This document shows, piece after piece, positions 13,762 through 31,810 of a stretch of DNA of 64,000 bases. Made by a program: the position numbers and the translations under genes. The notes under the pieces are model-generated. The model searched no databases. It had not been told where the DNA came from and saw only the letters and a list, made by a program, of their open reading frames with translations. Source of the stretch: Pseudosporangium ferrugineum (GTDB lineage Bacteria; Actinomycetota; Actinomycetes; Mycobacteriales; Micromonosporaceae); the NCBI RefSeq assembly GCF_003002065.1, contig NZ_PVZG01000020.1, positions 1-64,000 of the forward strand, written 5' to 3'. Numbering within the stretch: the first letter of the stretch is position 1; each line of letters begins with the position of its first letter.

Positions 13762-14028
13762 CCTCGACCGGCGGCGCCGGCACCAGCCGGTCTTACCCGG
13801 GTGCAACCTACGTGCCGCCGCTTCCCGCCGGCACTCCGAGTCCCTGGATCACGGTGATGGCGCTGCGGGTGATCCAGAATTATGCACCCGCGAATGATCC
13901 CGTCGATGCACGGTGCCCGTGCCGCTGATCGGGAAGGCCATCGCGGGTTCACTGCCCAGGCCGCGCTCCGGCAGATCTTGTCCCGTGCGGGCGGGGCGCA
14001 TCATTGCGGCGCATTACCATCTCGTGCC

Positions 14029-14217
14029 ATGAGCGACACCACCCTTGCGCTCCTGCCGCTGATCCTGCTCGGCGTGGCCTTCGTCGGTTACTGCTTCTAC
14101 GACATCTCCCGCCACCAGGTGCGTTACCTCCCCAAGTGGGCCTGGGCGCTGATCTGCGTGATCTCGATCCCGCTCGGGGGAATCGTCTACCTGCTCGTGG
14201 GCCGTGGCCACCGATGA
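14029..14217 (+). CDS. Small PLDc_N-type membrane protein
   Basis: This 62-aa protein has two membrane helices separated by YDISRHQVRYLPKWAW, matching the PLDc_N (phospholipase D nuclease N-terminal) module that often occurs alone beside ABC transporters. Its stop overlaps the start of the ABC ATPase gene by 4 bp, so it is probably an accessory membrane subunit of that exporter. Confidence 0.75.
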   Translation: MSDTTLALLPLILLGVAFVGYCFYDISRHQVRYLPKWAWALICVISIPLGGIVYLLVGRGHR

Positions 14218-15089
14218 TCGTCGAGACCTCGGCGCTGACGAAGCGCTACGCGGCACACGCCGCTCTGGACGGCGTCGACCTGGCCGTCCCGGCCGGCTCG
14301 GTGTACGGGCTGGTCGGGCCGAACGGCGCGGGCAAGACCACGCTCCTGGGCATCCTCGCCGGGCTTCGTCGTCCGACCAGCGGATCGGTCCGGCTCGAGG
14401 TGGCGCGTGACCGGGTCGCGACCCTGCCCGACACACCACAGTTCGATCCGTGGCTCACCGGCCGTGAAGTGGTCTCGCTGGCCGCCCGCCTGGCCCCCTC
14501 GACGCCGGCCGGCAAGGTGGACGAGGTGCTGGCCGAGGCGGGGCTCGCCGAGGCCTCCGACCGCAGGGCCGGTGGCTATTCGCGCGGCATGCTGCAGCGG
14601 CTGGGACTGGCCGCCACCATGGTCGGCGAACCGTCTCTGCTGCTCCTCGACGAGCCGGCGTCCGCCCTCGATCCGGCCGGCCGCCGGGAGGTGCTCGACC
14701 TGATCGCCCGGCTGCGCGGCCGCGCGACCGTGGTCTTCTCCAGTCACATCCTGGCCGACGTGCAGGAGGCCTGCGACCGGATAGGCATCCTGCGCGACGG
14801 CCGCCTGCTCTTTCAGGGCAGCCTGGATCAACTGCTGGTGGGCCGGGCGACGCCTTCGGTCGAGCTTCGTCTGCGAAGCGGTGGCGATCAGGCCGCGGCG
14901 CTGCTGCGGCGCCAGGATTGGGTGACTTCGGTACGCCCGGCCGGCGCCGCGCTGATCGTCGGGGTACGCACGATGGACGAGGCGGAGGCCCGCATGGCCG
15001 GCGTGCTCGCCGAGTCCAGCGCGAGGGTGATCAGCGTCGGCCCGCGCGAGGCCGAGCTGGAGGACGTGTTCCTGGAGCTGACGTCATGA
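14214..15089 (+). CDS. ABC transporter ATP-binding protein
   Basis: This is a 291-aa protein. Walker A is GPNGAGKTT, the signature is YSRGMLQRLGLA, Walker B is LLLLDEPASALDP, and the switch His is in VFSSHILADV. A ~80-aa C-terminal extension is typical of the CcmA/NatA-like drug and antibiotic exporter subfamily. It overlaps its neighbours by 4 bp on both sides, forming an operon with the membrane proteins. Confidence 0.92.
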   Translation: MIVETSALTKRYAAHAALDGVDLAVPAGSVYGLVGPNGAGKTTLLGILAGLRRPTSGSVRLEVARDRVATLPDTPQFDPWLTGREVVSLAARLAPSTPAGKVDEVLAEAGLAEASDRRAGGYSRGMLQRLGLAATMVGEPSLLLLDEPASALDPAGRREVLDLIARLRGRATVVFSSHILADVQEACDRIGILRDGRLLFQGSLDQLLVGRATPSVELRLRSGGDQAAALLRRQDWVTSVRPAGAALIVGVRTMDEAEARMAGVLAESSARVISVGPREAELEDVFLELTS

Positions 15090-15835
15090 CCCTGTGGCGC
15101 CTGGAACTGCTGCGTCTGGTGCGGACGCGACGCCTGGTCGCGCTCCTGGCGGTGTACGCGTTCTTCGGCCTGACCGGCCCGCTCACCGCCCGCTACCTCG
15201 GTCGGATTCTCGGTGCCATCGGCACCGAGGGCGTTCAGGTGCAATTCCCCGAGCCCACGCCCGCCGACGGCATCACACAGTTCGTCGGCAACGCGTCGCA
15301 GATCGGTCTGCTCGTCGTCGTCCTGGTCTCGGCGTCGGCGCTGGCGTTCGACGCACGCCGGGAGATGGCGGTCTTTCTGCGGACGCGGGTCGCCGGCGTA
15401 CGTTCGATCGTCCTGCCGGCGTACGCGATCAACGTCGCCGGCGCCGTGGCCGGCCTGCTGCTCGGTTCGGCCTGCGCCTGGTACGAGACAGCGATCTTGC
15501 TGGGCGCCCCACCGGCCGGCGCCATGCTGGCCGGGATCGCCTACGGGTCGGTGTCCCTGGCCTTCGCCGTCGCCCTCGTGGCGTTCATGGCCGCCCTGGT
15601 GCGGAGCGTCCTCGCGGCGGCGGGCAGCGCGCTGGCCGTCCTGCTGCTCACCGGCATCCTCGGCAGCGCCGCCCGGGTGGGCACGTGGCTTCCGACCGGG
15701 CTGCTGGGCGCCCTCGGCGAGCTCACCGCCGGCCGGGCGCCCGGCGACTATCTGCCGGGCCTCGCGGTGACGCTGATCCTCATCGTCCTCGCGCTGGCCG
15801 GCGCGGTCCGGCTCGGTGACCGCCGCGAACTCTGA
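15086..15835 (+). CDS. ABC transporter permease
   Basis: This is a 249-aa integral membrane protein with six predicted segments (~18-38, 72-92, 108-130, 140-165, 172-195, 222-242), an ABC-2-type permease layout. It forms the channel for the preceding ATPase, which it overlaps by 4 bp. The substrate is unknown. Confidence 0.85.
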   Translation: MTLWRLELLRLVRTRRLVALLAVYAFFGLTGPLTARYLGRILGAIGTEGVQVQFPEPTPADGITQFVGNASQIGLLVVVLVSASALAFDARREMAVFLRTRVAGVRSIVLPAYAINVAGAVAGLLLGSACAWYETAILLGAPPAGAMLAGIAYGSVSLAFAVALVAFMAALVRSVLAAAGSALAVLLLTGILGSAARVGTWLPTGLLGALGELTAGRAPGDYLPGLAVTLILIVLALAGAVRLGDRREL

Positions 15836-16138
15836 CGTCCGGCCGGCCGGTCGCACGGCGGGCCACGACGCCGCGCCGGACCGTCGGCAGGCCGGGCCTT
15901 CGGGTGTGCCCAGCCGGCGGCCCGACGGCGAGGCCGCCCCGCGACCGGCTCCACGGTCAGACCCGTCGCCGCGGGCCCATCGGCCCTGACCGATCCGGCT
16001 CGGCACGCGGATCGTGGGGGCAGCGGTGGGAGCCGGTCACCGGCGGCGGAGGGAGTCAGGTGTGGGCGGACCGTGGTGTGCGGAGCGGGACGGTGCCGGC
16101 CAGCACGAACCAGATCGCCGACGGGAAGGTGGCGGGCG
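15836..16138. other. Intergenic stretch, no gene recognised
   Basis: Starts with CCGGCCGGCCGG palindromic sequence that may terminate the ABC operon; nothing else is identifiable in these 303 bases. Confidence 0.35.
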
Positions 16139-16861: not shown

Positions 16862-18097
16862 TCACGGCTCGAGCAGGGTTTCGAGGACCGCCTCCTCATG
16901 GATGGCGACCCCCGCGTCCGTCATGGCCGCCGCCAGGTCCGGGTCCCAGGGGGCCGGGATCGGCCGGCCGGTGAGGGGCTGGCGCGGGGTTCCGTGGTCG
17001 TGGGCCCGGGCGACCGCGCTGCGGTAGTCGTGCGCCGTGAATCGCCAGGGCCGGGCCGGGTAGCGGGCGAAGATGCGGGTGGCGATGGCGATGCCGGGCC
17101 AGTCGAAGTCGCCGTGGTAGGCGAGGACGACGTCGGGGGATCGGGTCAGGGCATCGAGGAGGGCCAGGGTGACCGTTGTCGGGTTGCCCATCGTGCAGAC
17201 CACGGCGCGGTCCCAGGCCGCGTCGGCGACGGCTTCGAGAACGCGGGGATTTTCGCAGACGTAGATGGTCTGCGGGGCGACGTGCAGTGGTGTGAGGCGG
17301 CGGATCTCCCGCAGGGTCAGGTGGGTTTCGGCGTGGCGGTCGGCGCGGTGGCACAGCCAGGGGTCCGCGGCGGGGCGCAGGCCGTACGTGAGCACGGTGG
17401 TCGCGACTGTGTCGCCGGTGACACCGGCAGCGTCCCAGAGGGCGCGGCGGGCTTCGGCGTTGGCCGGGAAAGGCGCGGTGAGGGCGAGGGCCAGGCCGCG
17501 AAGGACGACGCGGGCCAGGGGAGTGTCGTCGTCGAGGCCGTGGGCGGTGCCGGTGACTGTCTGGGCGAGCTCGCCACGGGACCAGGTGCGGGCGTGGACT
17601 CCGACGGTCAGCCCGAGCGCGCTCGACGCCTGGTCGACGAGGCGGCGGACGTCCTCGGAGCTGAGGCGCGCCGGGAGTCCTTGCCGCCAGAGCCAGTCGA
17701 GCCACGGCGGCGCCCAGGCGCAGTCGCCGAGGCCGGCGGCCACGAGGGCGGCGTCGGCGTGGTCACGCAGGAGGGACCGCCGGGCAGCCGAGGCCGCCGC
17801 GTCGGCGCGGCGGTCGGGGACCGGGCCGACGATCTGTTCCACCACGGCGAGCAGTCCGACGCCCGCGGCCGAGTTCCGCAGCCGGCGATCGAGCGTCGCC
17901 AAGTCGATGGTCATCTGCGTGCCGACGACGCGGTCGAGCAGTTCGCCCAGCGCTGAGCGTTGCTCCGGGTCGAGCCCGCTGATCGTCAGCCGTCCGGTGG
18001 CGGTACGGCCGTTGCGGATCAGGCGGCGGTGGATGGTGGTCCACAGAGGGAGGAGTTGAGGCGATTGCAGATAGGCCAGAGCACCCGCGGGAATCAT
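16862..18097 (-). CDS. jetD: Wadjet JetD, TIGR02679 type (Toprim nuclease subunit)
   Basis: This is a 411-aa protein. The C-terminal half carries a topoisomerase VI-like Toprim fold: catalytic Glu in YVCENP (E282), then the DxD metal pair in YHGDFDWPG (D330, D332). These match the DUF2399/DUF3323 family (TIGR02679), the nuclease subunit that cleaves plasmid DNA after loop extrusion by the SMC complex in Wadjet systems. The start overlaps the jetC stop by 4 bp (ATGA). It is the last gene of the operon and appears intact. Confidence 0.85.
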
Positions 18098-21000
18098 GCC
18101 GGCAGCACCGTCCGGCGGCGGCCGTCCCAGCGGAAGTGCAACGTGGCGACGCCGTTGCGGGCCGGGTCGCGCAGACATTCGTAGATGCCCAGCGACGGCA
18201 CCTCCGGGAAGCAGCCCCACAGGCGTTCGCTGGTCAGCACGGCGTCGAGGTCGAGGTCGACCAGCAGTCCGAGGAGCCGGCCGTGGGTGGGCTCGTCGAC
18301 CTTCGCGAACGCGTCGTCGAGCAGGATGAGCCGGGGTGCCTGCGGGTGCGCCTCGCCGACCGAGGTGAAGTGGGCGGCCGCCGCGGCGAAGAGCACCAGG
18401 TACGAGACCACTCGCTGCTCGCCTTGCGACATCGCGGTGCGCGCCGACAGCGTACGCTCGCGGTCGGGGTTGGCCTGGTCGGTGACCTTGACGGTGAAGG
18501 CGAACCAGGCGCGGTAGTCGAGGGCGGCGCGCAGGTGCACGGCGTACCCGGCGGACGGGTCGGCGCGCCTCGCGTCCTCCACGCGCCGGGCCAGCGCTTC
18601 CCGCAGGCGGTCGTTGTTCTCCCTGGTCCGCAGGTTCAACGGGGTGCGCAGGAGGGTGACCGCCGTCCGCAGGTCCGCGTCCACGTCGTCGCGCAGGGTC
18701 CAGACCAGGCGTGCGCCCAGACCGTGCGAGGTGCGTACCTCGGCGAGCGTCTTGTTCATCACGGCGACCAGGCTCTCCGCGGATCGGACCTGGCGCGACA
18801 GCGCGTCGCCCAGCTCGCCCAGCAGGAAACGCTCGAACGCCTGGCCCTCGCGTTCGGCCACCGCGGATCTCTTGTGGTCCAGCTCGGCGCCGAGGCGGGC
18901 GGTCGCCTGCGCCACCGGGTGCTGCCCGAGGTCGTCGGCCAGCTCGATCACCTTCACTCCGTCGCGGTCCTCCCAGAGCAGGTCGAAGCCGCCCGCCAAC
19001 CGGTTCCGCACGTCGTTGTAGCGCTGGTGCAGGGCGTTCTCACCGACGTCGTGCCGCGGCGGGTCCAGGGCCTCCCGCAACTGCCCGGCGAGCTCGTCGA
19101 GCCGGCGGATCCGGTCCCGGGGGGTTCCGGTGATCTCGTCGACGGAGACGGCCGGCGACAGCGTCAGCGCCTCGGCGACGCCGGGCAGCGTGAGGACCCG
19201 GGGCAGGTCCGTGCCGGCCCGCAGCGCGAGATCCTCCTGACGGGTCAGCTCGGCGCGGGCGTGGTCGCGCTCGTTCTCCGCGCGTACCCGGCGGTCGCGG
19301 GCGTCCTCGTAGTCCCTGCGCGCCGCCGGCACGCCGGCCTCGGCCGCGCGGATCCGGCTCACCGCGTCTTCCTCCCGCCGCAGGATCGCGGCGGGCTCGG
19401 CGCCCAGAGACTCTTCGAGTACGGCGTACGCCCGTGCCTCGGCCAGGTGGATGCCGGCCGCGGCCTCCGCTTCGTCGGCTGTGCCGGCCGCCCGACCGAC
19501 CGCCTCGGCGTGGCGGGCGATCAGGGACGCGTACTGGTCGAGTTCGGCGGCGAACCGACCGGCCGCCCCCGCATGCCGGGGCAGGTCGGCGCCGAGCTGC
19601 CGGAGGCGCTGGTCCACGGCGCTCAGCTCGTCGCGGTCGTCCGGCAGCAGACGCGCCTCGGCCGCGGCCCGGACTTCGCCGCGCCGGCGGTCGGCGGTGG
19701 TGCGCAGCTCCCGAGCCTGGCGGCGGGCGGCGGCGACCTCGCGTCCGAGCCGGTTCACCGTGGTCTCGGCCTCCTGCCGGCGGCTCCACCCGGCGCGCAG
19801 ATCCATCCCGTCGGGCAGCTGTCGCAGGACCTCGGCCAGACCGGCCCGCCGCCGATCCTCCTCGGCAAGGCCGGTCTCGAGCCCGTCGATCTCGGCGGAG
19901 AGTTCCGTACGGCGCCGCTCCAGCTCGGCGAGCCGACGCCGGCGCAACGCCTCCCGGTTCGCCGCGCCGACGTACTCGGCCGCGGGTTTCGTCCATGCGC
20001 CCCGCACGACGTCGAGCTGCCAGCGGCCCGCATCGTCGATCCAGCTCGCGGCGCCGGATCCGGCGCCGAGCCCGATGCCGGCGAGCAGGCGTTCCACCCC
20101 GTCGCCCCCGGCGACCGGGATCAGCACTCCGGCGAGCGACGGCCCGCGGACGGCGGGGCCGGGCCTCAGCAGCACTTCGCCGCCGGACGGGTCCAGCACG
20201 GTGCCGTCCGTGGCGACCAGGGCGTCGAGCAGCCCGCTCGCCTCCAGGGCCGCCTCCAGTCCCGCCCGGCGCCCGGCATCGAGGTGCCCGGCGAAATCCA
20301 CCAGCCGGTACAACGGCGTGCCCGCCCGCGGTGTCCGGGCGGTACCGCGGAACCGGGTCGGCGGCGGCTCAGGATCGGTCAGCTCACTCCACCTGCGGTG
20401 CTCCGCGTTCGCCTCGTCGTGCTCGCTCCGGGCTCGGGACAGCTCGGTGAGCAGCAGGTCACGCCGGCCCTGTGCCGCTGCCCGCAGCGGCTCGGCGGCC
20501 GCCTCGGCCGCCGCGCGGACCTCGGCGGGGACGGTCTCGGCGAGGGGGTCCTCGTCCAGGAGCAGACCCCGGACCCCGGCGAGGCCGGCTTCCGCCAGGT
20601 GCGGCGAGGCCAGCCATTCCCGTACGGCGTGAGCGAAGGCTCGACTGTTCTCGAGCAGGCCGGTCGTCACGTCGGACAGCCGGCCCAGCGCCAGGGCGTG
20701 CTGGTCGTCGAGCAGGTCACGGTCGGCCTCGGCGCGGGTGGCGGCCCGGTCGGCGGCTCCGGCCTGATCCAGCAGCTGCCGCACCTCCTGTACGGCGTGC
20801 CGGCGTCCCCGCACCGCCGCCTCGGCCGCCGCGAGCCGCTCGCCGTACCGCCGGAACTCCTCCGAGGCCAGGTCGTGCAGCAGGATCCGCAGCGCGGGTT
20901 CCGCGGGAGCCGGCCCCTCGCGCAGTTCGGGCACCACGGCGAGGTGGCCGACGTCCAGCCCGGCCTCGGCGGCGAGCGCAGTCAGCTGCCGATGCCCGTC

Positions 21001-22188
21001 GCGGAGCCGGGTCGTCGTTTCCGCCAGCCGCTGCGACTCCGCGGCCAGGCGCTCCGCTGCCCCGGTGGCCGTCTGCCGGTCCGCCGCGGCCGCGCGTGCC
21101 GCCGCCCGGGCCGCGGCGTCCAGCGCCTCGACGGCGACGCGGCGCTGGCCGAGCTCCTGGACCGCCCGGTAGCCCGCGCTCTCGCGCAGCGCCGCGAGCT
21201 CGGCACGACTCTCGCGTTCCTGGCGCGACCAGCGATCAAGGATCTGCTGCGCCCGGCCTTCGTGTTCGAGAGCGGCATCGACCTCCCGCTCGGCCTGGCC
21301 GCCTCGCCGGCGCCACCGCCGCAGCTCGGCGAGTGCCTCGTCCACCGTACGGGTCCGGCGCCGCAGCTCGCCGTGCAGATAGCCCCGGTACGAGGTCATG
21401 AGCTCCGCCAGCGCCGCGTGTGTCGCCTCGAGCCGGCCCAGGTCCGCTCGTACGGACTCCAGGTCGTCCAGGTTGTGCGCGACGTTGTCCAGGACGTCGT
21501 CGTCGACCGGCGGCAGGGCCTCGCTCAGCTCCAGGGTCAGCTGGCCGGCCTCGATCCGGTCGCCGACCGTCGGACGGCGCAGCCGGTACAGCAGGTGGAC
21601 CAGATTGCGATAGCGGCCCGCGTCGGTGATGCCGAAGACCTCACGGCCGACCCGGGCCCGGTAGTCGCGCGCGGTGGCGTAGATCGCGCCCTCGCCGAGG
21701 GCTTCCCGAAGCCGGTCGACCGGGACGGGCTGGTGGTCCACGACGAGGTCCACGTCGATGCCGACCCGCGACGGGGTGAGAAAGAACGCGAGCCGGGCCT
21801 CGGCGGTCGACGACGACCACCGGACGACGGCGCCCAGCGTGAGGAACCGCTCGGCGCCTTCCTCGTCGATTCGCCGCAGCTCCAGCCAGGCGTGGCCCTG
21901 CCGGTTGACCCCGGTCGCGCCCTCGCTCATCAACCAGCGGAAGGTGGTCCGGCCGGCGCCCGTCGCGTCGAGCCGCTTCGTGTCACCGTCCAGCAGGAAC
22001 GGCAGGAGGATCTCCAGCGCCTTGGACTTGCCCGCGCCGTTCTTGCCCCGCAACAGCAGGCGGCCGTCCTCGAAGTCGAAGACCTGCTCGCCGTACTGCC
22101 AGATGTTGCTGATGCCGGCGCGGTGCAGCCGGAAACGGTGCGCCCGGGCCGGCGGGGCCTCGGTGGCGACGGCGATGGCCGTGGTCAT
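18094..22188 (-). CDS. jetC: Wadjet JetC, TIGR02680 SMC-like ATPase
   Basis: This is a 1364-aa protein. Walker A is GKNGAGKSK (residues 48-56). Long Arg/Glu/Ala-rich coiled coils occupy ~250-560 and ~740-1110, with a hinge-like region around 600-720. The C-terminal head has signature AMSQGEQRVVSY, Walker B RLILLDDAFAKVD and a switch-like LTSERLWGC. This is the condensin-like motor of a Wadjet system, which recognises and extrudes small circular DNA. It overlaps jetB (4 bp) and jetD (4 bp). Confidence 0.9.
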   Translation of the reverse strand: MTTAIAVATEAPPARAHRFRLHRAGISNIWQYGEQVFDFEDGRLLLRGKNGAGKSKALEILLPFLLDGDTKRLDATGAGRTTFRWLMSEGATGVNRQGHAWLELRRIDEEGAERFLTLGAVVRWSSSTAEARLAFFLTPSRVGIDVDLVVDHQPVPVDRLREALGEGAIYATARDYRARVGREVFGITDAGRYRNLVHLLYRLRRPTVGDRIEAGQLTLELSEALPPVDDDVLDNVAHNLDDLESVRADLGRLEATHAALAELMTSYRGYLHGELRRRTRTVDEALAELRRWRRRGGQAEREVDAALEHEGRAQQILDRWSRQERESRAELAALRESAGYRAVQELGQRRVAVEALDAAARAAARAAAADRQTATGAAERLAAESQRLAETTTRLRDGHRQLTALAAEAGLDVGHLAVVPELREGPAPAEPALRILLHDLASEEFRRYGERLAAAEAAVRGRRHAVQEVRQLLDQAGAADRAATRAEADRDLLDDQHALALGRLSDVTTGLLENSRAFAHAVREWLASPHLAEAGLAGVRGLLLDEDPLAETVPAEVRAAAEAAAEPLRAAAQGRRDLLLTELSRARSEHDEANAEHRRWSELTDPEPPPTRFRGTARTPRAGTPLYRLVDFAGHLDAGRRAGLEAALEASGLLDALVATDGTVLDPSGGEVLLRPGPAVRGPSLAGVLIPVAGGDGVERLLAGIGLGAGSGAASWIDDAGRWQLDVVRGAWTKPAAEYVGAANREALRRRRLAELERRRTELSAEIDGLETGLAEEDRRRAGLAEVLRQLPDGMDLRAGWSRRQEAETTVNRLGREVAAARRQARELRTTADRRRGEVRAAAEARLLPDDRDELSAVDQRLRQLGADLPRHAGAAGRFAAELDQYASLIARHAEAVGRAAGTADEAEAAAGIHLAEARAYAVLEESLGAEPAAILRREEDAVSRIRAAEAGVPAARRDYEDARDRRVRAENERDHARAELTRQEDLALRAGTDLPRVLTLPGVAEALTLSPAVSVDEITGTPRDRIRRLDELAGQLREALDPPRHDVGENALHQRYNDVRNRLAGGFDLLWEDRDGVKVIELADDLGQHPVAQATARLGAELDHKRSAVAEREGQAFERFLLGELGDALSRQVRSAESLVAVMNKTLAEVRTSHGLGARLVWTLRDDVDADLRTAVTLLRTPLNLRTRENNDRLREALARRVEDARRADPSAGYAVHLRAALDYRAWFAFTVKVTDQANPDRERTLSARTAMSQGEQRVVSYLVLFAAAAAHFTSVGEAHPQAPRLILLDDAFAKVDEPTHGRLLGLLVDLDLDAVLTSERLWGCFPEVPSLGIYECLRDPARNGVATLHFRWDGRRRTVLPA

Positions 22189-23405
22189 GAACGAACCTCC
22201 TCGCTCGTCGCGTACCGGGCTGCGGCCGCGAGCAGCACCAGGCCGCCGTCCGGTCCGTCGCCGCGGACCCCGCGCGCGGGCACCGGGCGGTCTGCCGTCG
22301 TCGTCTCATCCGGCTCCGTGTCGGCGATCGTCGGCACCGACCGGGCGAGCAGCCCCATGCCGGCCAGCAGGGCCACGACCTCCTCGCGGAGTGCGACCGG
22401 GTCGTTGACGTACCGCGCCGCCCAGCGCCGGGCGTGGCGTTGCGTCAACTCGCCGACGATCCGGTCCAGGTGGCCGTCCGGGATCGGCACGCCGACGACG
22501 AGCGTCCCGGCAGCCGGCCGCAGCTCCTCGACCAGCCGGCCGACGACCAGCAGGGCCGCCTGCGCCACGGTGCCGTTGCCGGGAAAACGTACGTCGGTGA
22601 GCTCGTCGTCGGGATCGAACAGGGCCACACCCTCGGCGCGCAACTCCGTCAGCAACCCCAGGTGCTCCAGGTACGCACGCTCGTCGCGGCGTTGCTCGCG
22701 ACGCAGCCAGGCGCGGTCAGCAGACCCGAGATCGTCCACATAGGTCACCGGATGTTCGATCAGCCGCCGCCGGACGGCGTGCCGTGAGCCACCCGGCCCG
22801 GCCTCCGCGGCGGCGCGGACGAACTCGGCCGGCGACCCGGCGCGACCCGGCGGCGTCGCCAGCAGGTGCGCCACGATGTCCCGATCGATCGTGAGCAGCG
22901 CCTCGACGTGCTGGTCCTCGGCGTAGTCCGCGACGGTTCCCTGCTCCTCGCGCAGGGCGCCCCAGGCGATCAGCCGGCGCAGGGCGGCGCTGAGGGCCCG
23001 TCGCTCGGCCGGGCGCTGCGCCTCGTCCAGCGCGATGCCCGCCTCGGCCGCCGCCGCCCGGATGTCGGCGATGAGGCTGGACAGCAGGATCTGTTCGGCC
23101 CCGGTGAGCAGCACGGCGACCGCGAGGCACAGGTACGCGTACATGCGCGGGGTGAAGGGGCCGCTGTCCCGCAGCAGCGGCCGGCCGAGACCGGGACCCA
23201 GGCCGGTTTTGAACAGCCGCGCGAAGCCCGCCTCGACGATCAGCCGGTAGCCCAGGAAGTTGCCGAACCAGTTCTTCAACCACTCCGCGTGCCGGCGTAC
23301 GAGCGGGAAATCGGCGTTCTCGCGCAACAGCAGGGGCGCGGCGAGCAGGGCACGCACCGCGCGGCGACGCTCGGCGGCGAGGGCGATGTCGGGTGCGTCA
23401 GTCAC
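22185..23405 (-). CDS. jetB: Wadjet JetB, TIGR02678/DUF2398 (kite-like subunit)
   Basis: This is a 406-aa protein starting at GTG 23405, overlapping the jetA end by 8 bp. Helical winged-helix-rich protein with FPLVRRHAEWLKNWF, PFTPRMYAYLCLAVAVL and YVDDLG segments typical of TIGR02678/DUF2398. In Wadjet complexes this subunit corresponds to the kite protein (MukE-like) bridging the kleisin to the SMC heads. Confidence 0.85.
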   Translation of the reverse strand: MTDAPDIALAAERRRAVRALLAAPLLLRENADFPLVRRHAEWLKNWFGNFLGYRLIVEAGFARLFKTGLGPGLGRPLLRDSGPFTPRMYAYLCLAVAVLLTGAEQILLSSLIADIRAAAAEAGIALDEAQRPAERRALSAALRRLIAWGALREEQGTVADYAEDQHVEALLTIDRDIVAHLLATPPGRAGSPAEFVRAAAEAGPGGSRHAVRRRLIEHPVTYVDDLGSADRAWLRREQRRDERAYLEHLGLLTELRAEGVALFDPDDELTDVRFPGNGTVAQAALLVVGRLVEELRPAAGTLVVGVPIPDGHLDRIVGELTQRHARRWAARYVNDPVALREEVVALLAGMGLLARSVPTIADTEPDETTTADRPVPARGVRGDGPDGGLVLLAAAARYATSEEVRS

Positions 23406-24918
23406 CGGGGGTCTCCACGCGACCGATCACGATGCCGAGGTCCTCGATGGTGAAGTCGCCGGTCACGGAACGCAACGTCAGGATCGAGCGAGGCTTGCTG
23501 ATCAGCTCGCATCGCAACTCCAGGTCGTCCAGGACGGTGACGGCGCCGCCCAGCGCGGGGTCGCCGGCGCCGAGCGCCCGCGCGGTCAGCTCCAGCACGA
23601 GCTGGATTGCGGGTGCGGAGAGCCACACCGCGCCCAGGTCGTCCCCGGCCGACAGCAGCTCGGCCGCCGCCGCTGCCCGCCTCTGCTGTTCGGCCGCGGC
23701 GGCCTCGACCAGGGCCCGCTGCTGGGCGCTGCGGTCCGGAAGCCCCGCCGCCCGGCCGCGGGCGGCGCGGACCCCCCGTTCGCGCAGCGCCACCGGAACC
23801 TCGACCGAAGCCACCGGCCACCAGCTGGTCGTCGCGGGAACGACCGCCTCCGGCTCCGGCGCGATGCCCAGGTGCCGCGCGCCGTGCGAGCCGAACGCCG
23901 AGGAGAAGATGTCCGCGGCACTGTCCTCGTCCGCCGCGTCCAGCCAGGCGGCCAGGCGCAGCAACTCCCGTCGTCGCGAGGTGCCCCGGCCTGTCGACCG
24001 CACCAGCCGCTTCGCGTTGGCCAGCAGCGATTGCAGGGCGCGCAGGGTGGCATCGCGCAGCTGGGTGACCTCGCTGCGCCGCCCGTCCACATCGGCGAAC
24101 CAGGCCCGCAGGCCGGCCCAGTCCGCCGCCTCCTGTCCGCGACCGGCCTGGATCACGACTCCGGCTCCGGCCGCCGCGCCGGCCAGCCCGTCGGCGCGCA
24201 GGGTGGCGATCAGGGCGGGCAGGTGCGGCCACAACCGGTCCAGATGCCGCTCGATGCGCGGGGCGAGCAGGACGATCTCCTCGGTGATCGACTCGATGTA
24301 GTCGAGGAGCAGGTCCTTGAAGCCCGCGTACTCGCCTGTGTCGAGGTCGTACCGGGCCAGCACCTGACCGAGAAAGGCATAGAAGTCGCGGACTGAGTCC
24401 CGGAACGCCCAGAACTGGGCGAACACCGTCGCGACCGTTTCCCGCGCGGTGGTGCCGTCGATGCCTCCCGGCGCCGCGACCCGGTCGGCCAGGTTCGCCA
24501 GGCCGACGTTGATGAGGCCGAGCAGCTCGCGGCTGATCTCCCGGGCGGTGTCGGCACTCGACAGCACCTCGTCGGCCTGGCGCTGGACACGCTCACCCAG
24601 CGGTGACAGCTGATAGCGTGACCGGGCCCGCTGGTACTCCTCGATGCTCTTCACCCGCACGGTGTGCGAGCTCGGCAACAGGTTGCCCCAGCCCTTCAAC
24701 TTCTCCAGGCGGTTCACGGCCGTGTCGAGGGACAGGTTGACGCCCCGCCCGGCCAACCCTTCGACGACCTGCTGCGCGGACAGATCCGCCATCAGCGAGG
24801 CCGTGAACAGGCGCATGATCGCCAGGTAGTCGGCGTGCTCCGGAGCGGTCAGATAGGCGAAGGCCGACAGCCGGGCCAGATCCTCCTCCGGCTCCTCCAC
24901 GGCCAAAGAATATGTCAC
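23398..24918 (-). CDS. jetA: Wadjet JetA, TIGR02677/DUF2397 (kleisin-like subunit)
   Basis: This is a 506-aa protein. The GTG start at 24918 forms a GTGA overlap with the SEC-C gene stop, which fixes the start. The N-terminal LSAFAYLTAPEHADYLAIMRLF motif region is diagnostic of TIGR02677/DUF2397, the kleisin-like subunit. It heads the jetABCD operon, and the four Jet genes are all overlapping on one strand. I recall this DUF2397/2398/2399 set as Wadjet type II; the type number should be confirmed. Confidence 0.87.
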   Translation of the reverse strand: MTYSLAVEEPEEDLARLSAFAYLTAPEHADYLAIMRLFTASLMADLSAQQVVEGLAGRGVNLSLDTAVNRLEKLKGWGNLLPSSHTVRVKSIEEYQRARSRYQLSPLGERVQRQADEVLSSADTAREISRELLGLINVGLANLADRVAAPGGIDGTTARETVATVFAQFWAFRDSVRDFYAFLGQVLARYDLDTGEYAGFKDLLLDYIESITEEIVLLAPRIERHLDRLWPHLPALIATLRADGLAGAAAGAGVVIQAGRGQEAADWAGLRAWFADVDGRRSEVTQLRDATLRALQSLLANAKRLVRSTGRGTSRRRELLRLAAWLDAADEDSAADIFSSAFGSHGARHLGIAPEPEAVVPATTSWWPVASVEVPVALRERGVRAARGRAAGLPDRSAQQRALVEAAAAEQQRRAAAAAELLSAGDDLGAVWLSAPAIQLVLELTARALGAGDPALGGAVTVLDDLELRCELISKPRSILTLRSVTGDFTIEDLGIVIGRVETPGD

Positions 24919-25871
24919 CTGGGAGACGACGGCGATTTCCCGTTCATCCAGGGCCGGCCGCAGCACTTCTTGTACTTGCGTCCGGAGCCGCACCAGCAGG
25001 CGGCGTTCCGTTCCGGCGGCCAGTCGATGGTCACCCGGTCGGGTGCGGTTTCGCAGTAGCGCCGTTTGATGGCCGGGTCCGTCGGCGACCCGCCATGGAG
25101 CCGGGCGAATGCGATGAGGTCGTCGACGTCGGCGGCGACGACAGTGATCGACGGGACCCCGCCGTCGCGCACCTCCCGCCACCGGTGTTCGGCCGCGGCG
25201 TAGTACTCGTCGTCCGGTTGGTCGTAGACGCCGGGCCACTGCTGCTGGGCCAGCCGGCGTTGGTCGCGCCGGAACGTGAGCATGCGGGTCTGCCGGGGGA
25301 TGAAGCCGGAGTCCATCAGGTCGAGAACGTCCTCGGCCGTCGTCGGCTTCTCCGGATCCGTCAGCTCAGGGACCAGGGTGTCGAGCAGGTCGGGAGAGCG
25401 GCCGAGCCGTTGGCGTACCTGCTGCCGGTTGCGCAGCATGATGGTGGTGCCGATGGTGGGCCACTTGTCGCCGCGGCGGAGGGCGTCGAGTTGTTCGTCG
25501 GTGAGGCGGGCCGCGGCGCGGTCGTACCAGCGGGCTGCCTGGTCGAGGTCGCCGTGCGCGGCGAGGAGTTCGGCGGCGAGTTCGCATTGCCGTTCGCCCA
25601 GGGCATGGTCTTTCGCCGCGGTGTTCAGCTCGGCGTACGCCATCATCGTGTCGCCGGCTTGCAGGTGCAGGTCGGCGAGTTGAATGCGGGCATCACACCC
25701 GTATTCACCCCCGCCTTCGACGAGTTCGTCGAGGATGGCCCGGGCACGGTCCGAGCGTCCGGCCCGCTGCCAAGCGTCGGCGGCCTCCAGGAGGATCTCC
25801 GGACGCTCATCCGGGTACCTGTCGGCGTCGGTTTCGAGCTCTGCTGCCAGCTTCGTGTCGGCGTTCGCCAT
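24915..25871 (-). CDS. TPR-like protein with C-terminal SEC-C zinc motif
   Basis: This is a 318-aa protein. Residues ~1-125 are Ala-rich paired helices of TPR style (ILLEAADAWQRAGRSDRARAI; ELAAELLAAHGDLDQAARWYD). The C-terminus has the complete SEC-C motif CWCGSGRKYKKCC, a zinc-binding element shared with SecA and many small adaptor proteins. The gene lies between the truncated type I jetD and the second Wadjet operon and overlaps jetA of the latter by 4 bp (GTGA). It is therefore co-translated with that system. An accessory role in defence is an inference from position. Confidence 0.8.
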   Translation of the reverse strand: MANADTKLAAELETDADRYPDERPEILLEAADAWQRAGRSDRARAILDELVEGGGEYGCDARIQLADLHLQAGDTMMAYAELNTAAKDHALGERQCELAAELLAAHGDLDQAARWYDRAAARLTDEQLDALRRGDKWPTIGTTIMLRNRQQVRQRLGRSPDLLDTLVPELTDPEKPTTAEDVLDLMDSGFIPRQTRMLTFRRDQRRLAQQQWPGVYDQPDDEYYAAAEHRWREVRDGGVPSITVVAADVDDLIAFARLHGGSPTDPAIKRRYCETAPDRVTIDWPPERNAACWCGSGRKYKKCCGRPWMNGKSPSSPR

Positions 25872-26025
25872 GGCGCGGATCGTACTGGCCGGCGGGTGCC
25901 GGCCATGCCGGTGGTCGCTCGAGCGGGTGAGGCAGCCGACGCACGGTGGCAGTCCTCTTCCACGTCGGCGGCGCCGGGGTCTTCGGCTCAGCGGAACTCT
26001 CTCGCCACGACCCGGACGAGCTGGG

Positions 26026-26208
26026 TTACGGCGTGGGTGAGGGGGGTTTGGCCGGTGCCCCGTCCGGTGCGGCCGCGGCGAGGGTGGCGCGGAAGTGGTC
26101 GAGGATGCGTAGCCGTCCGCGTCGATGTCGCACCGCCCCCGCCCATCGCTGTCCCAGCTTGCCGCGGACAGCGGCGACGGCGTCCTGCGGGGTGATGAGG
26201 GTGCTCAT
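26026..26208 (-). pseudogene. Truncated type I Wadjet jetD (first ~60 codons only)
   Basis: ATG 26208 overlaps the stop of the type I jetC (ATGA), the normal place for jetD. The first ~26 residues (ITPQDAVAAVRGKLGQRWA) look like the start of the DUF3322 domain. The frame then becomes Arg/Pro-rich and stops at codon 61, whereas full JetD is about 380-400 aa with a Toprim (DUF2220) domain. Nothing resembling that Toprim motif occurs before the SEC-C gene. In another frame, the 19 codons ending at a TGA near 25997 read LTHAVTQLVRVVAREFR and may be a remnant of a gene end, consistent with an internal deletion. Confidence 0.65.
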
Positions 26209-29200
26209 GCGTCCGGGAGTCCGACCAGGAGCTTCGCCCAGGAGCGGCCCTGGGTGTTCTTGAGGATCACGTACTCCGCGTCCACGTGCGGTTCGATCGC
26301 GCTGTGCTTGTCGTTCGGGGCTCCGATGATCAGCTGGAAGCCCAGTCCCCGCCAGGCTCCGATGGCGCGGCCGGTGAAATGGGCGTCTGCCTTGATCAGC
26401 GCCTCGTCGAGGAAGACCGGGGCGTAGCGGGGGCGGGCGGCGCCCGCGTCGCCCAGTTGGTATCGCAGGGCGGCGCCGACGATGAAGGCGACGAGTTCCT
26501 GGGACTCGCCGCCCGACTTCTCGCCGATGTGGTCGTAGACGGCGACGTGCTTGCCGTCGAGGTCGATCTTCTCGGCGCTGATCCGGACGTGGTTGCGTAT
26601 GTCGACGAGGTCGGCGAAGTCGGGGGCGGTGCGGCGGATACGGTCGATGACCTTGACCATCCGGTGGTAGGCGCGTTCCCGGTCGTCCTCCGTCACCGCC
26701 TTGTCGATGAGGGCGCGCACGTCGCGCAGTTCCTTGCGGAAGCGGGCGCGGGCCGTGGAGTGGCTCTCCTGGGGGTCGATGCGCAGCCGGTGTCCGTCGT
26801 CGGCGAACGGCAGGCCGGCGAGGATGCGGTTGACCGGGTCGATCCGGTCGCGGATCTCCCGTACGGCGGCGGCCAGCTCGCTGTCCAGGCCGGTCAGGTC
26901 GTTGCCGGACAGGTTGAGCAGGCTGTCGCGCCACTCGGTCTCCAGCTCGTGCAGGCCGCTGGTCTCCAGGTCGGTGAGCAGGCGGTCGAAGTCGCGGTAG
27001 GAGGCGTCCGGGTCGATGCCGAGGTTGGGGTTCGGCCAGCGTTCGAGGAAGGTCGAGAAGGTGTCGTGCAGCGCCTTCCTCGACCGGCCGATCGACTCCG
27101 CCGCGGAGCGCCGGTCGGCGTCGACCCGCTCGGCGGCGCGTTTCACACCCGCGTCGAACTGGGCGAGCACCTCCGCCGGGCCGGCGCCCTCCGCGTCCCT
27201 GTCGAAGAGGGTCTCCAGGTAGTCCCGGTGCTCGGGGCTGAGGTCGATCCCTGAGTCCTCGGCCCTGTCGAGCGCCAGCTGGGCGCTGTCCACCTCGTCG
27301 ACGATCGACGCCCAGGATTCACCGACCTTGGTCACCATGTCCTTCTGCCGCCCGACGCGTTCGGTCAGGTCCCTGACCTGGCGCTTGAGGGCGTCCAGGT
27401 CGCGCTGCAGCCGATCGATCTCCGGGTTGCCGGCCCGGATCTCCGCCAGGACGCGGTTCCAGCGGTCCTGCTCCGCAAGGACCGCGTCGACATCCACCTG
27501 CTTCCACGACAGCTCGGTCAGGATCTGGTACGCCGTACGCCGGGCCTCAGTCGCGTTGAGGTTCGCCTCCGCCCTCTCGACCCCCGCGGTGGCGGCGTCG
27601 AGGCGCTCACGCGTCCGGCCGATCCGGGTCTCGAGGCCGGCGAGCGTCCTGCTGTTCGAGAAGCCGAGGACGTTGGCCCGGCCGTGGCCGCCGTGCGCGC
27701 CCCGGCCGCCCTCCGAGGTCTGTCCGGTGATCGTGAGTGCCTTGGAATACTGCGGGAGCAGCCTCGGGGTGTCGACACAGACGAAGGCGAACCGGCGGGC
27801 GAGTTCGCCCTTGAGCCAGGCGGTGAACGGCGACGGCCGGTAGTCGAGCCGGCCGGGCAGGGTCTTGCCGTCGAGCCCGGCCTCGTCGCGCTGCCCGGTG
27901 CGGACGCCCTCGAACTGGATGCGCCGCGCGGTCGGCACCGCGTTGATCGCCTCCCGGAACGCGTTCAACCGGCCGATGTCGATCAGGATCCGGGTGGCGA
28001 ATCCGCCGAGCGCCAGGTTGAACGCCTCGCGCCACGGCTCGAACTCCGTCCGTACCTCGATCAGCTCGCCGACGAACGGCAGGTCATCGGGGCTGAGGCC
28101 GGCGGCGTCGGCCAGCGCCGCGCGAGCGGCGTGCAGGTCGGCCGGGATGTTCCCCCGGCGGGCCCTGGCCGCGTCGCGCTCGGCGCGCAGGCCCGCCAGC
28201 TCGCGCTCGGCGTCCTTCTTCTCCGCCATCGCCGCGGCGTACGCCTGCTGAGCGGTCCGCCGGGCGTCGACGTCGGCCACCGAGCGGTGCGCCGTCTCGA
28301 CCAGCGCGGCGAAGTCGTCACCGGTCGAGACCGAGGCCCCGATCGTGTCCAGCACCCTGTCCAGCCGCTCCCGGGCCTGCCCGACCTCGCCCAGCCGCCG
28401 TTCCACGCCGCGGAGCTCCCGCTGGGCGGTCTCCAGGCGGTCGCCACCGGAGGCGCGGATCGTGTCGGCGATCCCGTCGTGCCGCGCCTCGGCCGCCTCG
28501 GCCAGGGCGCGGGTCTCCGCGAGCTCGGCCTGGGCCCGGCGGTGCCGCTGATCCAGGTCCTGCTCCGCCGAGCGCAACAGGTCGAGCCGGCGTTGATGAC
28601 GCCACAGCGCGGCGGGCGAGGCCGCATCGGCGAACGAGCCGATCTCGTCGATCGACCGCAACCGGTCCACCGCGTCGTCGATGGTGCGCCGGTGCTCGCG
28701 GATCGGGGTCAGCGCCTTCACCTGCCGGCGGGCGGTGATCATCCGGGCGCGGGTGCCGGACAACTCGTCGAACTGCTGCACCACCGCGTCCGCGGTGGCG
28801 AGCGTGGCCGGCTCCTCCAGGACCATCGTCTTGTACAGGGCGTCGACCGTGGTGATCTGCTGGCCGGCCTGGATCCGCCCGAGCAACGCGATCGCCTTGT
28901 GACCGTCGCCGGCGGCGCCGATGCCGAGCGTGGTGTGCAGGCGCGCGGTGAATTCCCGGTCGGTGTCGCTCCAGGTCAGGCCGGTTGCCACGACGTCGGC
29001 GCGGGCGAACTTGCGGCTCGCGGGGCCTTCCAGCGTCCGCAGCTGATATGCCTGGTCACAGGTGGCGCGGACCGCCACGACGTCGTCCAGGTTGCGGGCC
29101 GACGACGGCACGTACCAGGCCCGCAGCGCGGTGAACTCGGCGCCGGTGTGGTCGACCCAGGTCATCGCGATGGCCGACCACGTGTCGCGGCCGTCGCCGC

Positions 29201-29543
29201 GCAGCACCCGCAGCTTCGTCTCGCCGCCGGCGCGGGACTCGTCGAGCTTGCCACGCGCGTACGAGAGGACGTTGCGCTGGTCCTTGCCCCGGGGCCGGCC
29301 GACCACGCCGCCGTTGGACGCCCCGTTGAAGGGGGTGGTGTGCGGCATCAGCAACGCGATGTACGAGTCCATCAGCGTCGACTTGCCCGATCCGGAGCCT
29401 CCGCTCAGCAGCGTCGCACCCGGCGCGAGCCGCAGGTGGTGGTAGCCGTCGTAGCCGCCCCAGTTGACCAGTTGCAGGTCCCGCGCGACCCACTGCTGAC
29501 CCCGCGATGCCGCCGGGACCAGCCCGAACAGCGTGTCGATCAT
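26205..29543 (-). CDS. jetC: Wadjet type I JetC, SMC-like ATPase
   Basis: This is a 1112-aa protein starting at ATG 29543, 2 nt after the jetB stop. Walker A is GGSGSGKST (48-56). Coiled coils cover ~220-420 and ~560-870, with a hinge region between. The C-terminal head has the signature EKSGGESQELVAF and Walker B APVFLDEALIKAD. This matches the COG4913-like SMC of the DUF3375/DUF4194 set. Its partner jetD is destroyed, so the complex could still extrude or bind DNA but not cut through its own nuclease. Confidence 0.88.
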   Translation of the reverse strand: MIDTLFGLVPAASRGQQWVARDLQLVNWGGYDGYHHLRLAPGATLLSGGSGSGKSTLMDSYIALLMPHTTPFNGASNGGVVGRPRGKDQRNVLSYARGKLDESRAGGETKLRVLRGDGRDTWSAIAMTWVDHTGAEFTALRAWYVPSSARNLDDVVAVRATCDQAYQLRTLEGPASRKFARADVVATGLTWSDTDREFTARLHTTLGIGAAGDGHKAIALLGRIQAGQQITTVDALYKTMVLEEPATLATADAVVQQFDELSGTRARMITARRQVKALTPIREHRRTIDDAVDRLRSIDEIGSFADAASPAALWRHQRRLDLLRSAEQDLDQRHRRAQAELAETRALAEAAEARHDGIADTIRASGGDRLETAQRELRGVERRLGEVGQARERLDRVLDTIGASVSTGDDFAALVETAHRSVADVDARRTAQQAYAAAMAEKKDAERELAGLRAERDAARARRGNIPADLHAARAALADAAGLSPDDLPFVGELIEVRTEFEPWREAFNLALGGFATRILIDIGRLNAFREAINAVPTARRIQFEGVRTGQRDEAGLDGKTLPGRLDYRPSPFTAWLKGELARRFAFVCVDTPRLLPQYSKALTITGQTSEGGRGAHGGHGRANVLGFSNSRTLAGLETRIGRTRERLDAATAGVERAEANLNATEARRTAYQILTELSWKQVDVDAVLAEQDRWNRVLAEIRAGNPEIDRLQRDLDALKRQVRDLTERVGRQKDMVTKVGESWASIVDEVDSAQLALDRAEDSGIDLSPEHRDYLETLFDRDAEGAGPAEVLAQFDAGVKRAAERVDADRRSAAESIGRSRKALHDTFSTFLERWPNPNLGIDPDASYRDFDRLLTDLETSGLHELETEWRDSLLNLSGNDLTGLDSELAAAVREIRDRIDPVNRILAGLPFADDGHRLRIDPQESHSTARARFRKELRDVRALIDKAVTEDDRERAYHRMVKVIDRIRRTAPDFADLVDIRNHVRISAEKIDLDGKHVAVYDHIGEKSGGESQELVAFIVGAALRYQLGDAGAARPRYAPVFLDEALIKADAHFTGRAIGAWRGLGFQLIIGAPNDKHSAIEPHVDAEYVILKNTQGRSWAKLLVGLPDA

Positions 29544-29545
29544 GC

Positions 29546-30208
29546 TCACGCGGTGGCCTCGTTCCGTTCGCGCAGCCACCGGTCCAGCTCGGCGAGCTTC
29601 TCCGTGCTCAGCACGACCTCCACCATCGGGGTGATCCTGTACCGGCCCGCGGACTCCTCGGTGAGCAGCCCCTCGGTGACCAGCCGCTGCACCGCGTTGC
29701 GTACCTCCTGCTGGCGCCTGGCCAGGTTGTGGTCGTGCGGGTCGAAGTACGTCAGCACGGTCTGCTCCAGCTCCTCGATGTCGACCCGCGCGGACGTCTC
29801 GCCCGTGCCGTGTTCCCGCTGGAAGACCGTGCGGAGGTGGACCAGGACCAGGGTCTCGGCCCGGTTGTACGGGTCGTCCTTGAGCAGGATCGGCACGTCC
29901 AGCTCCACGGAACGGACCTGCTGCTTGTACGCGACGCCGCGGTCGTGGTCGACCACCAGACGGACGAACAGGTCGTGCATCCGCGATTCGATGATCTGCT
30001 GGTTCTCCAGCAACGTGCGCCAGTACGCCGGGTTCTTCTCGGCGAGCAGGAACTTGCGCCGTAACAACTGGACCAGCACCCGGCGTACGTCCGCCTCCAG
30101 CGTGCCCGCGTCGCCGGCGAACAGCTCGGCCGGATCCTCCTCCATCGGGACCGGGTCGATGAACCCGGCCGCCGGCCAGTCGTCGCCGGTCCCGTCCGGC
30201 TCAGTCAT
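29546..30208 (-). CDS. jetB: Wadjet type I JetB, DUF4194
   Basis: This is a 220-aa protein from ATG 30208 (GGGAG 8 nt upstream); a GTG two codons earlier is possible. It overlaps the jetA stop. Winged-helix-rich with [19 protein letters not shown] and a [17 protein letters not shown] segment, as in DUF4194 kite proteins. It links the kleisin JetA to the SMC JetC. Confidence 0.85.
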
Positions 30209-31706
30209 CGTCACCGCTCCCGTCCACGCGCGCCGGATTCGCCGTCACCACACCGCCCAGAGCGAACCGTCTCCGGGTCCGGTCCGGTCGCACCGCCTCG
30301 ACCACCGCGACCTCGGTCGTCTCGGTCATCCCGGCGCCGTGGGCGACCTCCAGCAGGCCGAGCAGGTCGACCGGTCGCCGGATCTCCTCGTCCGCCGCAC
30401 GGAACGCGGCCACCACGTCGACGGCCACCGCCCCGTCGGCGAACGCCTCCAGGTGTGCGCGCAACTCGGCGTACCGGGGTCCGCCCCACGCCCGGGTGTC
30501 CGCGGCGGGCAGGTCGTCGGACCCGTCCCAGTCCCGCAGCGGCGCCGGCGGCTGCGGTGGCCGCGGGTCGCTCGTCCGCTGGCGCAGGTGTCCGACGTCG
30601 GCGACCGGCAGGCGGCGCAGCGGCTCGACGGCCTCGCCGCGGCGGGAGCCGGGAACCCACCGGTGCAGGCCCGACATCACGTCCCTCAGCAGCTCGTCCA
30701 CCTGGCGGTCCCGCATCGGGTCGTGGTTGCGGACCTGGGTGGTGATGACGTGCGACGCCTGCCGCTGGGCGGCCAGCACCTCCTTGACCCCCTGTTCGAT
30801 CCGCCGGGAGATCTCGGTCAGCTCGCGCCGCTGCTGCTGCGGCAGCAGCTCGGTGAACCGATGCCGCAGCACCGTACGCAGCCGGTCCCACAGGCCGTCG
30901 ATCTGCGCCGGGTCGCCGATCAGGCGCAGCGCCCCGGCGAAGGCGCGGCCCTCCGGCGTCGCGTCCAGGATCCGCCGGCCGCGGGCGAGGTATTCGCGCA
31001 GCACCTCACCGGTGGGCCGCACGTCGTGCCGCAACTCCGCGACGACGTCCCGCTGGATGGCCTTGATCGACTCGGCCACGCGGGCGAAGTCGGCGGGCAG
31101 CTCCCGCGCCAGGTGCAGCACGTTCTCGGCCGCCTCGAGCAGTTGCTCGTCGTCGACCGTCTCGACGGCGCCACCCTTCTCGAGCCGGGTCAGCTCCCTC
31201 TGCCGCTGCTGGATCTCCTCGTGCAGGCGCACCATCCGGGACATCAGGTCCGGATCGGCGTCCTGCGCCAGCCGCTCGATCGCCTCCAGCAACGTCCTGA
31301 CCCGCGACTCCGACACCCGCGTACGCGTTCCGCCGACCCGCCCGGCGACCTCGAGCGCCCCGACGCCGTACGCCGAGAGCCGGTAGACCTCGGCGTCGTC
31401 GTCGGCGGAAACCTGCCGCACCAGCCATCCCGCCTGCACCCACTGCCGGCAGAGATCACGCGCGGTGCCCGCGGGCAGCGGCTGGTTGTCCTCGTCGCCG
31501 TAGCCGGCGGCCCGCAACTGGTCGAGGGCGTCGTTGATCTCCGCGTGCGCGTCCGCCACCGCGACCGCCGGGCGCTCGGCGGTGAAGACCATCGCCAGCA
31601 CCGTCACCACGAACGGCGCGTGCGTCTGGTGCAGCAGCGCGAGCATCGGATTCTGGAACGCCCGGAGCGCTCCCTGGTAAGCGCCTTCGACACCTCGGGT
31701 AGCCAT
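30201..31706 (-). CDS. jetA: Wadjet type I JetA, DUF3375
   Basis: This is a 501-aa protein; I prefer ATG 31706 to an in-frame TTG three codons upstream. The N-terminus has [16 protein letters not shown] and [20 protein letters not shown], and the middle has the long helical segment [17 protein letters not shown], as in DUF3375 kleisin-like proteins. It is the first gene of the type I Wadjet operon. Confidence 0.85.
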
Positions 31707-31810
31707 CAGGGCCAAAGCCTACGATGCTGCTCCGAGCCGGAGGCCCGGCGGTAGCCCGGCCCGGACCGGGGGCCCGAGATCGCCGGGACCTCCCGAAACG
31801 TGAGCGTGCC

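Follow-up and report, generated by a model that had tools for sequence, protein, structure and literature searches.

The window, i.e. the stretch of 64,000 nucleotides of Pseudosporangium ferrugineum contig NZ_PVZG01000020.1 that was analysed, carries two sets of Jet genes of different type side by side, which an earlier note had taken for two different Wadjet systems. This raises the question of whether both sets are complete plasmid-cutting systems, and if not, what may have become of the incomplete one.

Gene content and organisation of the locus

Domain searches (Pfam, PADLOC) assigned both sets to Jet families, and located on the minus strand between positions 31715 and 16862 a type I set, JetA1-JetB1-JetC1, followed head to tail by a full type II set, JetA2-B2-C2-D2, confirming the earlier family assignments (DUF3375/DUF4194/SMC and TIGR02677-02678-02680-02679). 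The type I genes are jetA1 (30201–31715, kleisin, DUF3375; Pfam PF11855 E-value 7e-113, PADLOC JetA1 695 bits), jetB1 (29546–30214, KITE protein, DUF4194; Pfam PF13835 E-value 5e-41, PADLOC JetB1 E-value 1.7e-109) and jetC1 (26205–29579, SMC ATPase; PADLOC JetC1 1664 bits). Their ORFs are open across 1850 codons, and the JetC1 ATPase motifs are all present, i.e. Walker A GGSGSGKS, the SGGE signature and Walker B VFLDE.

The type II set was identified by profile matches as jetA2 (23398–24900, DUF2397/TIGR02677; GTG start at 24900 selected by alignment of homologues), jetB2 (22185–23405, DUF2398/TIGR02678), jetC2 (18094–22188, TIGR02680 SMC, 1016 bits) and jetD2 (16862–18097, DUF3323 and DUF2399, TIGR02679), all within one operon, which is complete as had been claimed. 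Motifs read from the sequence include Walker A GKNGAGKS and C-terminal SQGEQ and LILLDDAF in jetC2, and both acidic TOPRIM-like motifs, VCENP and GDFDWPG, in jetD2. With all four genes, full-length matches, an overlapping operon and intact ATPase and nuclease motifs, the set corresponds to the type II Wadjet of PADLOC, and on these sequence features it is likely a working anti-plasmid system.

Gene junctions overlap or nearly touch, as described before, except across 24.9–26.2 kb. This interval contains a jetD1 fossil directly after jetC1, and an intact gene for a SEC-C/TPR protein that the earlier note had overlooked. A promoter and terminator scan of 24.7–26.4 kb returned three weak terminator-like sites, including a minus-strand one at the stop codon of the SEC-C gene, and no marked RNA fold. 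The anatomy of the locus is secure.

The jetD1 pseudogene

The stop codon of jetC1 shares the tetranucleotide ATGA with an ATG, and in many relatives jetD1 starts with the same coupling. This ATG opens a frame of 60 codons, in which residues 1–26 correspond to the JetD1 N-terminus and residues 35–55 match JetD1 about 310–330 residues into the protein, the intact length in relatives being ca. 400–430 residues. In nucleotide alignment with the intact jetD1 of a related locus (L002), the 202 bp pseudogene (minus strand, 26007–26208) retains three pieces of a gene of ca. 410 codons, jetD1 nucleotides 1–77, ca. 884–970 (one base missing) and ca. 1167–1233, collinear and with about 85% identity over the aligned pieces. 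Two internal deletions of ca. 0.8 kb and 0.2 kb and a 1-bp frameshift thus separate it from an intact gene, and most of the catalytic TOPRIM domain is gone. An assembly slip as the cause of the broken gene is disfavoured by the several lesions and the ordinary divergence.

No JetD_C domain (PF09983) was found anywhere in the 8.65-Mb, 99.99%-complete genome. Since its jetD1 is a fossil and JetD_C is absent genome-wide, the type I set amounts to a JetABC core that lacks its nuclease, and the claim that the first operon is a full Wadjet does not hold. In comparison to type I Wadjet/MksBEFG (JetABCD; Corynebacterium glutamicum MksBEFG), JetA1, JetB1 and JetC1 are homologous over their full length and in the same order, as an operon of DUF3375 kleisin, DUF4194 KITE protein and MukB-like SMC with the ATGA coupling to the jetD position; the window differs in that JetD (DUF3322 and DUF2220/JetD_C) with its TOPRIM acidic residues is missing.

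Recurrent loss of JetD among relatives

Within the JetABC1 family of the window, jetD1 was absent downstream of jetC1 in 35 of 76 scoreable loci. Whole-genome searches found no JetD_C in 31 of 34 JetD1-less genomes, and JetD_C acting in trans is conceivable in 3 of the 34; all six JetD1-containing controls had the domain. On the JetC1 tree the JetD1 character changes 15 times, and at least 13 of these changes are forced by well-supported branches. Positioned jetD debris was recognised in the window and in L016, L034 and L071, together with a short N-terminal piece in L006 and weak traces in L033 and L037. The direction of change is loss, at least where debris persists at the exact jetD1 site.

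The remaining genes were uninterrupted (jetA, jetB and jetC) in 33 of the 35 JetD1-less loci, one of the two exceptions being a contig edge and the other, L070, truly broken. This recurrent loss of the cutter with intact motor genes suggests an independent function for the motor. The type II nuclease domain DUF2399 was present in 5 of 30 JetD1-less genomes vs 11 of 20 JetD1-containing ones, and 22 of the 30 had neither JetD_C nor DUF2399. No type II set occurred within 10 kb of the other jetD1 losses, and type II is not a general substitute for a lost JetD1.

Searches beside the JetD1-less operons for a replacement gene found no family common across lineages, only synteny within Microbacterium. 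In that genus, the JetD1-less operons (L050, L055, L057, L061, L072, L073) have conserved neighbours, unlike the varied flanks of JetD1-containing operons, as if they had turned into resident chromosomal genes; the shared flanking genes are as expected from vertical inheritance. The N-terminus of JetB, reported as the JetD contact region, did not differ visibly between operons with and without JetD1, and a literal IFDR motif was absent from both groups. At the sequence level, JetB thus gives no sign of retooling after JetD loss.

Rarity of the tandem and its surroundings

The organism, a soil actinomycete, was placed within Actinoplanes (L001, A. xinjiangensis, has 92% JetC1 identity). No type II gene was near the type I genes in any of 78 related JetABC1 loci (flanks up to 10 kb). 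A genome survey run with JetA2 identified orthologous type II sets in seven Actinoplanes congeners (JetA2 ca. 75% identical), and only in the window is the set preceded by the SEC-C/TPR gene and a nuclease-less type I core; in G047 the orthologous set is 5 Mb from the type I genes, and in G066 it is on another contig. Among 394 genomes drawn from across the class, DUF3375 was matched in 68 and DUF2397 in 93, and about eight genomes besides that of the window had both over the cut-off. The nearest such pair elsewhere was ca. 290 kb apart on one contig, and most pairs were on different contigs. The adjacency of type I and type II is singular within these samples (76 type I loci and the class draw), and the earlier view of the side-by-side pair as unusual is borne out, none of the other genomes sampled having it.

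The designation of the locus as an island has weak support: those neighbouring genes that could be assigned to families are unremarkable (M28 and M1 peptidases, beta-CASP hydrolase, ABC transporter, GH85, regulators), and no tRNA gene was found by the locus. An ABC-transporter module at 13966–15924, beside the type II end, shares 96% DNA identity with G008, the flanks beyond it not being common to both, and represents a recently moved segment. G008 is without both Jet operons in the ca. 40 kb read, and comparison with it gave no empty insertion site, as the flanks past the ABC-transporter piece differ. Plasmid searches with the type I portion returned only short matches of 77–81% DNA identity. 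Between 45351 and 63883 the minus strand carries a succession of very long ORFs (3096 and 1564 codons, 75–77% GC). The series extends, with similar repeats, beyond the end of the window (L171) and resembles a modular biosynthetic gene cluster. Elsewhere in the same genome (L160; contig C23, 90–98 kb) there is a further, divergent type II-like operon of 27–35% identity, and the strain therefore has at least two type II-like systems.

The SEC-C/TPR gene

The intact gene between the two sets (minus strand, 24915–25871; 318 aa, Pfam PF02810 E-value 2e-9) ends 14 bp before jetA2. The genus survey identified six close copies (79–100%) in Actinoplanes, five of which, counting that of the window, lie immediately beside a gene of a type II Wadjet. 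These adjoining copies (the window, L155, L156, L157 and L158) are associated with three divergent Jet lineages in two arrangements, i.e. upstream on the same strand in the window and G019, and downstream and convergent in G007, G041 and on contig C65 of the same genome as the window. Those of G007 and G041 look frameshifted, and the G019 copy is without its N-terminal part. No Wadjet gene was found within 1.5 kb on each side of the ca. 50% identical homologues in other genera, and the SEC-C protein had no match in plasmids. It may be an accessory factor or a hitchhiker.

The copy on contig C65 (4,076 bp; L158), the second in this genome (86%), is convergent with the C-terminal piece of another JetD2 (45% identity, residues 205–450), next to a putative IS3-type transposase pair, called by eye from the translation. 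The contig represents what is left of an additional type II system.

Selection on the JetABC core

Average pairwise dN/dS values for JetA, JetB and JetC were 0.10, 0.16 and 0.13 among JetD1-less pairs vs 0.13, 0.21 and 0.23 among JetD1-containing pairs, the group means being only roughly comparable since the groups differ in divergence (dS), and one JetD1-less pair (L062/L071) not forming a pure JetD1-less clade. On the window branch the estimates were 0.14 for JetA1, 0.20 for JetB1 and 0.24 for JetC1, and on two sister branches 0.11–0.13, 0.05–0.07 and 0.12–0.14, respectively, with jetA1 of one locus (L081) compared over part of its length. The window values are far below 1, yet raised for JetB1 and JetC1, as early relaxation would give. 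The locus thus has a three-subunit core without nuclease under purifying selection, as in MksBEF, with a window estimate that averages in the selection preceding jetD1 loss in one strain, and with this pre-loss time included, continued selection and early decay cannot be told apart with a single strain.

Function of the JetABC1 core

In type I Wadjet, JetABC is thought to extrude DNA loops, and confers the sensing of DNA shape; once a small circle has been extruded completely, JetD is activated and cuts (PMC10586767; PMC10123090). The review PMC10586767 further proposes that Pseudomonas aeruginosa MksBEF, which helps to organise the chromosome, came from JetABCD via loss of JetD. The MksBEFG of C. 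glutamicum acts on plasmids and not on the chromosome, and has been contrasted with P. aeruginosa MksBEF in this respect (PMC7083940). The core of the window is alike to MksBEF without MksG in having kleisin, KITE protein and SMC and no nuclease; the difference is that its loss is recent enough to have left a fossil, and the likeness is one of gene content, a chromosomal role being putative.

We consider it probable that the locus combines a nuclease-less type I core, now MksBEF-like, with a complete type II system that restricts plasmids, and that it is a snapshot of a repeated transition from Wadjet to MksBEF. JetABC1 would still assemble an ATP-driven, loop-extruding SMC complex, which without JetD would load onto and extrude DNA but could not cut what it reels in. 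Its role would then resemble that of MksBEF, to organise or hold the chromosome or other DNA, and the restriction of small circular plasmids would fall to JetABCD2. By analogy, we infer the MksBEF-like role with moderate confidence; JetABC1 may be an SMC complex that has survived the loss of its nuclease, or one that is just starting to decay.

The latter possibility, a dying JetABC1 which lost its nuclease recently, perhaps as redundant beside type II, and in which disabling mutations have yet to accumulate, is the less likely but a serious alternative. It is favoured by the raised dN/dS of JetC1 and JetB1 over the sister branches, by the debris still being so similar to intact jetD1 that the loss is not ancient, and by the adjoining complete type II set; against it, the three ORFs are open with intact ATPase motifs, and JetD1-less cores of relatives persist across genera at dN/dS values of 0.10–0.16. 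It is improbable that JetABC1 recruits JetD2, or the SEC-C protein, into a hybrid restriction complex: the genes are on the same strand with possible co-expression and jetD2 is intact, but JetD1 and JetD2 fall into different Pfam families, JetD2 already comes with a core, the other JetD1-less loci have no type II neighbour, and the core persists in the 22 JetD1-less genomes that lack either kind of JetD.

The reading of the earlier note, that two functional Wadjets are stacked and so exclude plasmids more broadly, is rejected as most unlikely in spite of strong Jet-family matches for both sets, because the type I set has lost its nuclease to a pseudogene without a replacement JetD_C and all four subunits are reported as necessary for plasmid restriction (PMC10586767; PMC10123090). 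The replacement of one system by the other, which the note had offered besides stacking, fits at this locus and fails as a rule.

Returning to the nuclease-less, MksBEF-like core, a wider generalisation is put forward tentatively, at somewhat less than even odds: that actinobacterial type I cores have lost their nuclease again and again (in one JetC tree, at least 13 changes) and live on as SMC complexes that are under selection and independent of JetD, the weapon becoming a condensin.

Significance

The finding bears on how the chromosomal MksBEF/MukBEF condensins relate to plasmid-cutting Wadjet, and its interest lies less in the tandem than in a nuclease loss that recurs and can be traced, the motor being kept. 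Close pairs with and without JetD (the window vs G047, L071 vs L075, L034 vs L031), several with fossils, make the conversion testable within a genus. For annotation, matches to JetABC do not equal a working Wadjet, and nearly half of the sampled JetABC1 family would be miscalled unless JetD is required. If the proposed reading is true, an anti-plasmid weapon would have been turned into a condensin naturally and repeatedly, with the window capturing one such conversion in which the nuclease persists as a fossil and another Wadjet adjoins.
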